A DNA stretch of 64,000 bases from Chthoniobacteraceae bacterium (GTDB lineage: Bacteria > Verrucomicrobiota > Verrucomicrobiia > Chthoniobacterales > Chthoniobacteraceae): NCBI GenBank assembly GCA_947476045.1, contig CANJNZ010000001.1:62001-126000 (forward strand). Reading direction: 5' to 3'. This document shows, one piece after another, positions 57,959-60,910 of the stretch (positions within the stretch are counted from its first letter, which is position 1; each line of letters begins with the position of its first letter). A program made the position numbers and the translations under genes. The notes below the pieces were generated by a model, which was given only the letters and a program-made list of their open reading frames with translations, was not told where the DNA came from and did not search any database.

Positions 57959-58588
57959 TTACTGCGGCGGGTTCTTGGTGCCGTCGGGGAAGGTGATGTC
58001 GGTCTTCGGCAGGGCGGCGCGCAGTTCGCGCAGCGCGGCGGCGGGGATTTTGTGGCTGCCCCAGAGGCCGAGCGTTTGCAGTCCGGTGAGGCCTTTGAGG
58101 GAGTCAACGTTTTGCAGCACACGGCAGAAGCTGAGGTCGAGCGTTTGCAGTTCGGTGAGGCCCTCGATGCCGTCCACGTTTTGCAGCGCGGGGCAGCCGT
58201 TAAGGAAGAGCGTATGTAGGCCGGTGAGGCCCTTGAGGGCGTCCACGTTTTCGTCTTTACATCCTTCGGCATACAATTGCGTGGGATTGAGATGGTGGAG
58301 CATTTCGCGGTAGCGGCCAAGGTCGGGGACTGCTTCCATCTCAAGCTCGCGCTCGTGCTTGCCCCATGTCTCCTTTTTGAGCGCATTGTGCCAATCCTGC
58401 CGGATGAGGCTGAAGGCGTCATCGTATTCCCACGTGAACCCCGCCTCCTTCGCTTCGCGGACGGCGTTGTTGTAGGCGTTGAGCTTCCACACCTGCCAGC
58501 CGATGCCGCCGAGGAAGACGACGATGAGCACGCACCAAATCTTCTTCCCAAAGCTGCTCTCGCTTTTCGTGGTGCGCCCGTCTTTCAC
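57959..58588 (-). CDS. Membrane-anchored leucine-rich-repeat-like protein A
   Basis: TM WCVLIVVFLGGIGWQVWKL; about 23-aa repeats LQTLDLSFCRVLQNVDSLKGLTG; GTG start. Confidence 0.8.
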   Translation of the reverse strand: MKDGRTTKSESSFGKKIWCVLIVVFLGGIGWQVWKLNAYNNAVREAKEAGFTWEYDDAFSLIRQDWHNALKKETWGKHERELEMEAVPDLGRYREMLHHLNPTQLYAEGCKDENVDALKGLTGLHTLFLNGCPALQNVDGIEGLTELQTLDLSFCRVLQNVDSLKGLTGLQTLGLWGSHKIPAAALRELRAALPKTDITFPDGTKNPPQ

Positions 58589-58651: not shown

Positions 58652-59557
58652 TTACTGCGGCGGGTTCTCGCTGCCGTCGAGGAAGGTGATGTCGGTCTTC
58701 GGCAGGGCGGCGCGCAGTTCGCGCAGTGCGGTGGCGGGGATTTTGTGGCAGCCGCGGAGGTCAAGCGTTTGCAGGGCGGAGAGGCCCTTGAGGGCGTCCA
58801 CGTTTCGCAGATCGCGGACGTTGACGAGGTCGAGCATTTGCAGGCGAGTGAGGCCCTTCAGGAAGTCCACGTTTTGCAGCGTAGTGGAGCCACGCAGATT
58901 GAGTTTTTGCAGGCCGGTGAGGCTCTTGAGTCCGTCCACGTTTTGCAGTTGTGGGCAGAATTTGAGGTTAAGTTCTTCCAAGTCGGTGAGGCTTTTTAGG
59001 TCGTCGGCGTTTTGCAGTGCGGGACATTCGCCGAGCCCTAACCCATGAAGACTGGTGAGGCGCTTCAAACCATCAATGTTTTGCAGCGCTTCGCAGCCGT
59101 TTAGGTTGAGTGTTTTCAGTTTGGTAAGACCCTTCAGTCCGTCCACGTTTTGCAGCGTGGTGCAGTCGTGGAGTTGGAGCGTTTGCAGGGAGGTGAGGCC
59201 CTTGAGGGCATCCACGTTTTCGTCCTTGCATCTCCAAGCATCCAAATCCGTGGGACGGAGATGGTGGAGCATTTCGCGGTAGCGGCCAAGGTCGGTGACT
59301 TCTCCCATGTAAAGCACGCGGCGGTGCTCGCCCCATGTCTCCTTTTTGAGCGCATTGTGCCAGTCCTGCCGGATGAGGCTGATGGCGTCATCGCACTTCC
59401 ACGTGAACCCCGCTTCCTGCGCCTCGCGGACGGCGTTGTTGTAAAGGTGGAGCTTCCACACCTGCCAGCCGATGCCGCCGAGGAAGAGGACGATGAGCAC
59501 GCACCAAAGCTTCTTCCCAAAGCTGCTCTCGCTTTTCGTGGTGCGCCCGTCTTTCAC
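58652..59557 (-). CDS. Membrane-anchored leucine-rich-repeat-like protein B (tandem paralog of A)
   Basis: Same N-terminus (VKDGRTTKSESSFGKKLWCVLIVLFLGGIGWQVWKL) and C-terminus (HKIPATALRELRAALPKTDITF) with more LRR units. GTG start by homology with A; the ORF extends to 59650. Confidence 0.8.
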   Translation of the reverse strand: MKDGRTTKSESSFGKKLWCVLIVLFLGGIGWQVWKLHLYNNAVREAQEAGFTWKCDDAISLIRQDWHNALKKETWGEHRRVLYMGEVTDLGRYREMLHHLRPTDLDAWRCKDENVDALKGLTSLQTLQLHDCTTLQNVDGLKGLTKLKTLNLNGCEALQNIDGLKRLTSLHGLGLGECPALQNADDLKSLTDLEELNLKFCPQLQNVDGLKSLTGLQKLNLRGSTTLQNVDFLKGLTRLQMLDLVNVRDLRNVDALKGLSALQTLDLRGCHKIPATALRELRAALPKTDITFLDGSENPPQ

Positions 59558-59648
59558 GCGGGCCTTGTGCCGCGTGCGGGGGATGTTGGCAAGGCGGGGA
59601 TGGGCAGGGGTGGCGGAAAGGAGGCGGGGCGTAGGCGGGAGGGCGCGC

Positions 59649-60111
59649 ATGGTGATTGAAAGGGCACGGGTGGCGGTCGGGAGGACAAAGGTGGTGCTTG
59701 GAGGAGGGCGGTTCTTGGTCGCGAGGATGGAGTTGGCCGTCGGAGGGAGGGAGGGAGGTGACGGTCAGAGGGACGTTGGTGGCGGTCAGAGGGGCAGAGT
59801 TCGCTGTCCGGGGAGCGGAGGTGGCGGTTTCTTTAGCCTCAACGCTTGTTCCGTTGTAGTCAACGCCAGTTCCGTTGGGCTCAACCGTCCGTCCGTTGAG
59901 TTCAACGGTTGTTCCGTTGTGGTCAACCGTTCATCCGTTGTGGTCAACGCCTTTTCCGTTTGGCTCAACGGTTAGTTCGTTCATCTCAACGGATATTGCG
60001 TTGGTCTCAACGGTTTATAGGTGGGGCCCAACGGACGCTCTGTTGGATTCAACGCTTTGTCCGTTGGCCACAACGGAATGACGGTTGGTCTCAACGGAAT
60101 CGGCGTTGGCG
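59649..60111. repeat. 21-bp-period tandem array; 13 palindromic units at 59839..60111
   Basis: TCAACG-type unit starts at 59839, 59860, 59881, 59902, 59923, 59944, 59965, 59986, 60007, 60028, 60049, 60070, 60091; G-rich units at 59670, 59691, 59712, 59733, 59758, 59779, 59800, 59821. Confidence 0.9.
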
Positions 60112-60167: not shown

Positions 60168-60869
60168 ATGAAACGCCATCATTTCTACCCGAGGCCCACT
60201 GGTGAGCAGGCTGGCTGGCTCGAAAACTTCGCCAATGCTCTGGAGTCCTGCGCTGCCACGCTCGGGATCGCGCCTGCCGTTGCTGCGGACTGTGTGGCCG
60301 ATGCCCGCTGGTGCGCTTACGTGGTGGGGTTGTGGCTGGCGACGGCGCGCTCTTTTTCCCCGGCTTCGACGGATGCGGTGGAGGCGGTGCTGAAGGGGAA
60401 GGACTTTGCGGTGACTTCGCTGCCCACTTTCACGCCGCCGGCGCTGCCTGCGGGGGTTTCGCCAAGGCCGAACGGGGGGCTCGGGCGCATCTTTGAAATG
60501 GCGGGGGCCATCAAGCGGATGAAAAACTACACGGAGATCATCGGGACGCGCCTCGGCATCGTGGGCCCGGAGGATACGGGGGCGAAGACGATGCCGAAAT
60601 TCACGGCGAAGGTGCTGCAAGGGGAGGGCGTAGAAATGGTGCGGCTGGCGTTTTTCAAATTCGGGCACACGGGGGTGTTCATCGAGTCGCGGCGCGGCGG
60701 TGGCGAGTGGGAGACGCTGGCGATTGATACCGAGAGCCCCTACGATGACGAGCGCCCCCTGCTCGCCGCCGACACGCCAGAGGTGCGCGAATACCGGATG
60801 CGTTTCTGGGACAAAGGGACGCCCAACGGTGACTTGACCGCCGTGGCGAAGGCGACGGTGAGCCCGTGA
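60168..60869 (+). CDS. Uncharacterised protein preceded by the 21-bp array
   Basis: MKRHHFYPRPTGEQAGWLENFANALESCAATLGIAPAVAADCVADARWCAYVVGLWLATARSFSPASTDAVEAVL...; start at the ATG just after the array. Confidence 0.75.
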   Translation: MKRHHFYPRPTGEQAGWLENFANALESCAATLGIAPAVAADCVADARWCAYVVGLWLATARSFSPASTDAVEAVLKGKDFAVTSLPTFTPPALPAGVSPRPNGGLGRIFEMAGAIKRMKNYTEIIGTRLGIVGPEDTGAKTMPKFTAKVLQGEGVEMVRLAFFKFGHTGVFIESRRGGGEWETLAIDTESPYDDERPLLAADTPEVREYRMRFWDKGTPNGDLTAVAKATVSP

Positions 60870-60871
60870 GG

Positions 60872-60910
60872 GGAATTGCGGATTTCGGATTGCGGATTGC
60901 GGATTTGGGG
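60872..60910. repeat. GGATTGC-type short tandem repeat
   Basis: ggaattgcggatttcggattgcggattgcggatttgggg; same family as 2285..2318. Confidence 0.75.

Follow-up and report, generated by a model that had tools for sequence, protein, structure and literature searches.

A noncoding 21-bp tandem array linked to a helical-Fn3 protein family in Verrucomicrobiota and other bacterial phyla

Within a 64,000-nucleotide stretch of DNA from a Chthoniobacteraceae bacterium (the window), tandem 21-bp units lie ahead of a gene for a 233-residue protein, and the comparisons presented here point to array and gene together as an undescribed cassette in at least three phyla. No description of such a cassette was found in the journal literature searched (mainly open-access articles). 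In at least three phyla, a protein family absent from the libraries searched goes together with a noncoding array that is free in sequence and almost fixed in its period of 21 bp. Selection appears to act on the geometry and dyad symmetry of the DNA rather than on one sequence, which is an unusual constraint, and the linkage to the array opens a direct way into the function of the helical-Fn3 family. The arrays make up a class of bacterial satellite-like repeats, and the many private array-protein pairs found in nature allow the co-evolution of DNA recognition to be tested.

The window array and the gene family beside it

The repeat region of the window is a composite of two arrays (Table 1). 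In the downstream or B array, identity is 0.67 at a lag of 21 bp and 0.68 at a lag of 42 bp, compared with about 0.25 at other lags. Six positions of its unit (C2, A3, A4, C5, G15, and T16) are invariant across the 13 units, spacer positions 8–11 and positions 19–21 are variable, and in the consensus, 7 of the 10 position pairs across the dyad are complementary (p = 0.008 relative to shuffles, for the B array alone). The original prediction of 13 units recurring every 21 bp without an indel is borne out, as all spacings are exactly 21 bp. It had also described a palindrome, CAACGG-N5-CCGTTG, in many of the units. The arms of this palindrome are common, with CAAC in all 13 units, GTTG in 10, CAACGG in seven, and CCGTTG in six, although the exact palindrome occurs in just one (59902).

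The A block, the older of the two, adjoins the B array directly on the upstream side; a period of 25 bp at 59725–59773 marks its 4-bp register slip. The same A-B composite is present beside the corresponding leucine-rich-repeat (LRR) gene of a congener (G001, Spartobacteria MAG Umea_bin-08385), in which the A-B junction is conserved (locus L007) and about 12 A-type units are combined with five of the B type. There, the gene downstream of the composite has been reduced to about 40 codons, followed by ProS, and the array has been retained.

Table 1. Positions of the arrays, genes, and repeats discussed in the text (window coordinates unless a locus is named)
Feature	Position	Strand	Remarks
LRR gene on the far side of the composite array	58652..59650	-	also a neighbor in congener G001
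A array, ~8 x 21 bp, unrelated non-palindromic type GAGGTGGCGGTCGGAGGGACG	~59660..59838	.	one 4-bp slip
Hybrid unit closing the A array	59818-59838		in register with the B array
B array, 13 x 21 bp, consensus TCAACGGTTTTTCCGTTGGGC, dyad-symmetric	59839..60111	.	no internal register shift
Spacer between array and start codon	60112..60167	+	
Gene for 233-aa helical and Fn3-like protein	60168..60869	+	multicopy family
Heptanucleotide repeat (ATTGCGG)n	60875..60905	.	directly after the stop codon
Heptamer repeats at L122	747-794, 2207-2230		
Heptamer repeats at L123	1463-1494, 2694-2726		
Heptamer repeats at L124	848-880, 2203-2234		
XRE/HTH_3 gene upstream of the array	L121, L123, L124, L156, L158, L163, L167, L178, L196, L204, L209-L212, L223, L270 (5617-6000)		
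MPFDP gene downstream of the Fn3 gene	L163, L167, L170, L182, L201, L204, L209-L212, L221, L223		

The protein encoded downstream is predicted to combine N-terminal helices (residues 11–32, 36–76, and 104–116) with a C-terminal Fn3-like β sandwich (about 144–231), as seen in an AlphaFold2 model built from a 43-sequence alignment (pLDDT 91.6, pTM 0.57). Foldseek matches of the modeled protein are mostly Fn3/Ig modules and include no nucleic-acid-binding fold. Searches of Pfam, NCBIfam, PHROG, PADLOC, and PDB sequences gave no convincing match for this protein, none of 43 family members matches a PADLOC anti-phage defense profile, and nothing was found when plasmid and phage proteins were searched for members of the family.

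Within its own genome the protein has four close paralogs, 56–58% identical to it, each preceded by a 21-bp array of its own, built from a different unit. Two more distant members, on contigs C2 and C83, also have arrays, so that none of the seven members in this genome lacks one; it was through its array, which lies between an HTH gene and the distant family member, that the C2 member came to light. Profile searches identified homologs in 15 of 40 genomes from the host's bacterial family, frequently in several copies, with more in other families and classes of Verrucomicrobiota, in WOR-3, and in Bacteroidota. DYIP-type proteins, which we presume to exist in other phyla, are a lead that finds support no further than these homolog searches reach. 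Contigs C30, C27, C268, C146, C91, C142, C173, and C106 of the congener G001 end inside copies of the Fn3 gene, which suggests that near-identical multicopy genes broke the assembly.

The search for arrays upstream of homologs of this protein, which had been proposed with the original prediction, used 650 bp upstream of each homolog and took the lag of best identity among 8–60 bp, over 126 bp; a locus was counted as positive where that lag was 21 or 42 with an identity of at least 0.5. Arrays were found by this measure at 68 of 74 loci from Verrucomicrobiota, WOR-3, and Prevotellaceae and at 18 of 25 further Bacteroidota loci. Combined, 86 of 99 homologs have an upstream period of 21 or 42 bp, compared with 0 of 235 control segments, the 99 loci being paralogs and orthologs that are hence not independent and that span three phyla and dozens of different units. 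When 864 kb of the genome (the window plus 800 kb sampled) was scanned for periodicity only, five strong 21/42-bp arrays were detected, of which one is the window array, one is the array that led to the distant C2 member, and three have no family gene.

Register, symmetry, and private unit sequences

The constancy of the period was gauged over the arrays taken together. Neighboring copies, in a total of 883 units, are mismatched at 35% of positions (5989 differences), and about three internal register shifts were counted by phase Viterbi, with six further calls at array ends. Changes in array length between ortholog pairs are mostly multiples of 21 or cancel one another. In contrast, the flanking noncoding DNA of orthologs contains 43 indels per 267 substitutions, of which none is a multiple of 21. 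The units are also palindromic above chance (6.6 pairs versus 5.5 expected, z = 12.5), a perfect example being CGCCTCCAACCGTTGGAGGCG, and, taken singly, 22 of 70 arrays reach p < 0.05 for palindromy, a count in which the window is entered as its mixed A and B consensus, the B array having been scored separately. Across the columns of the unit, conservation is mirrored about the dyad (mean rank 0.71, se 0.039, n = 55). As in phased operators, the sites are dyad-symmetric and an unchanging whole number of helical turns separates one from the next. Compensatory double changes are no commoner than expected, either within units (94 versus 109 expected) or between them (86 versus 95).

Taken together, a spacing of exactly 21 bp without coding, dyad symmetry, and the lack of covariation favor symmetric double-stranded DNA sites for protein, placed two helical turns apart. 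The original prediction of a helically phased palindromic array upstream of the gene is supported in this respect, the near absence of register shifts and the symmetry of the arms being observed and the binding of protein putative.

A period equal to seven codons also raises the issue of translation, and the original prediction had offered a decayed heptapeptide-repeat coding region as an alternative. Such a region, decayed or live and perhaps forming an N-terminal extension of the downstream protein, is now scarcely credible as a general explanation and, for the window array, is largely refuted. In its favor, L048 and several GC-rich loci have a frame that runs without a stop out of the array and into the gene, and plus-strand frames are open somewhat more often than those of the minus strand. 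All six frames of the B array nonetheless contain stops, as had been noted for several of them, with one or two in each of five frames and 11 in the sixth. In the AT-rich WOR-3, all six are closed in two of eight arrays (L222 and L224), and the open frames of the family genes there span only about 220 aa, with no N-terminal extension. The comparison of divergence by codon position that had been suggested as a check was run on 70 homologous arrays and revealed no signal of the coding type, as column diversity varied with codon position at p < 0.05 in one of the 70.

What is conserved among the loci is the 21-bp geometry, and the motif is private to each of them. Most pairs of unit consensuses are as unlike each other as shuffled sequences. 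Units are unrelated even in some paralog pairs for which the adjacent proteins are 81–90% identical (L209/L210, L156/L157, L196/L204, and L122/L123); between those orthologs that were compared, the unit is retained. The two-unit pattern of the window array was found nowhere else in its genome, and no dispersed regulon of the window motif was found. A viral origin of the motif was rejected, as matches in IMG/VR were single per contig and were taken as chance. When 85,462 species were searched with a strict pattern, seven loci were returned, all of them genuine arrays of 21-bp units (in Treponema, WOR-3, Prevotellaceae, and Verrucomicrobiota), and this recurrence of CAACG/CCGTTG across phyla may be a coincidence where palindromic units are so numerous.

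If the Fn3 protein reads the array, the existence of 90%-identical paralogs with unrelated units implies that few residues must decide which unit is read. Residue 5 of the protein differs in seven of seven close-paralog pairs with different units and in none of five pairs with the same unit, a post hoc comparison of dependent pairs, and is therefore taken as a lead only to how the units may be read.

Candidate explanations and related systems

How an array of fixed geometry and freely replaced sequence might serve the gene beside it can be framed in several ways. For the cis half of the cassette, we tentatively favor a noncoding, helically phased, dyad-symmetric, and locus-private array of putative protein sites, a reading that is plausible if still short of probable. 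Symmetric protein dimers would occupy one unit after another on the same face of the helix in cooperative assembly, and this assembly would control or nucleate the product of the adjacent gene, whether through autoregulation or as a nucleoprotein assembly. The binder would come from the same cassette, being either the Fn3 protein or, where present, the linked XRE/HTH_3 protein. The geometry of the unit stays fixed as its motif is replaced between paralogs. Several observations count against phased sites of this kind: Foldseek, applied to the predicted structure, shows no nucleic-acid-binding family for the Fn3 protein; the 90%-identical paralogs have unrelated units, and near-identical HTH proteins lie by unrelated arrays (L121/L124); no more than 22 of 70 arrays are palindromic when each is tested alone; the A block of the window is non-palindromic and contains one slip; and three of the five strong arrays in 864 kb lack a family gene. 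A more specific proposal, that of a self-addressing protein-DNA pair used across phyla, seems rather unlikely at present. In it, the variable N-terminal surface of each helical-Fn3 copy would read its own private and rapidly replaced two-turn array, the geometry being universal and the sequence a locus barcode.

A rival reading is a mutational origin with no binding function. Replication slippage or unequal exchange would amplify and homogenize 21-bp units close to the gene family into a minisatellite that is at most tolerated, an origin that would account for higher-order periods of 42, 63, and 84 bp, for ortholog copy numbers that change in 21-bp steps, for the replacement of unit types inside one register, and for orphan arrays without a gene. 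This explanation is nevertheless unlikely, as a neutral array would not be expected to remain almost free of register shifts at 35% divergence beside flanks rich in indels, to show dyad-symmetric conservation, or to be tied to one gene family in three phyla. Quite unlikely is the view that the array serves as the operator of a linked XRE/HTH_3 regulator, with the Fn3 protein as regulated cargo only. At 15–17 of 61 loci from several families, a small, co-oriented XRE/HTH_3 gene does immediately precede the array, and palindromes are read by HTH dimers. Most loci, including the window, have no HTH_3 gene nearby, however, and the closely similar HTH proteins of L121 and L124 stand beside unrelated arrays, which weakens the case for the HTH protein as reader of the units. 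Distinctly improbable, too, is a reading in which the array forms consecutive RNA hairpins within a 5′ untranslated region and acts on downstream transcription or translation. The palindromic units are in keeping with it, as is the placement of the array between a conserved leader (approximately GGGAAAAGGGGNNCTCTTCNCTGTNGGA, before several Spartobacteria arrays) and the start codon, ahead of which the Spartobacteria have an unstructured AC-rich stretch. Hairpins would not, however, require a spacing of exactly 21 nt, no excess of compensatory changes occurs within or between units, and no Rfam match was found.

The favored reading, an array of phased protein sites, invites comparison with systems in which DNA repeats are paired with a protein. 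In plasmid iterons and partition centromeres, tandem sites recur at intervals of about two helical turns, are specific to a replicon, and lie beside a protein gene of the same module. The present arrays resemble them in being tandem at about two turns, private, and adjacent to a protein gene, and differ in being chromosomal, with 5–18 copies per genome, and in that the adjacent helical-Fn3 protein has no Rep, ParB, or RHH signature and no plasmid match. CRISPR and TIGR arrays also lie beside a protein gene, as does the present array; here, however, there is no alternation of repeat and spacer, the contiguous units being variants of one motif, and the protein alongside matches no defense model. 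By analogy, then, the array may work like a phased operator, an iteron, or a centromere-like array. It is not classed as any of these because the adaptor proteins that define them were sought and not found: next to the arrays, no Rep, ParB, or RHH-type gene was detected, only an HTH_3 gene at a minority of loci.

Two further systems are similar in the form of their sites. In C.Csp231I, an XRE-family controller, the length of the spacer between palindromic dimer sites is critical and its sequence is not (PMC4321490). The operators of such controllers share with the present loci palindromic dimer sites upstream of a gene and small XRE-type HTH proteins; they differ in that C.Csp231I has two sites, compared with about 5–20 units in the arrays described here, in that restriction or methylation genes were not seen at the present loci, and in that the unit sequence here changes completely between close paralogs. 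The REP/BIME elements, in which one motif is dispersed genome-wide (PMC3733652), are likewise noncoding palindromes of similar length, whereas each motif here is repeated in tandem, keeps its register, and stays within a single locus.

Neighboring genes, orphan arrays, and heptamer repeats

Other genes recur around the cassette. At 12 loci, a gene for a short protein starting with MPFDP or MSFDP (about 67–115 aa, coiled-coil or collagen-like) lies downstream of the Fn3 gene; apart from a weak match to Collagen, no Pfam family was found for it. On the other side of the window cassette, the LRR genes at 57959–58588 and 58652–59650 form a tandem pair that share 76% identity over 179 aa and contain internal repeats of 69 bp.

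Some arrays occur apart from the family. L271 (9070–9777 on contig C3 of G000) and L287 (18824–19307 on C12) are long 21/42-bp arrays that share a common unit on opposite strands, with no family gene adjoining either. L299 (3171–3476 on C23 of G000) is an orphan 21-bp array upstream of a gene whose product, we presume, resembles an EVE-HNH protein. In a Treponema MAG, in which no homolog of the Fn3 protein was found, the long 21-bp array of L042 (4542–5938) contains several unit families and half-unit hybrids and runs off the contig.

Heptamer repeats provide a further common element. Repeats similar to the one after the stop codon of the window gene, of the form (GATTGCG)n, also occur at 2285–2317 and follow or flank three sister cassettes. 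They are found on both sides of several cassettes, in an orientation that is constant relative to the gene, and are possibly insertion or recombination sites.
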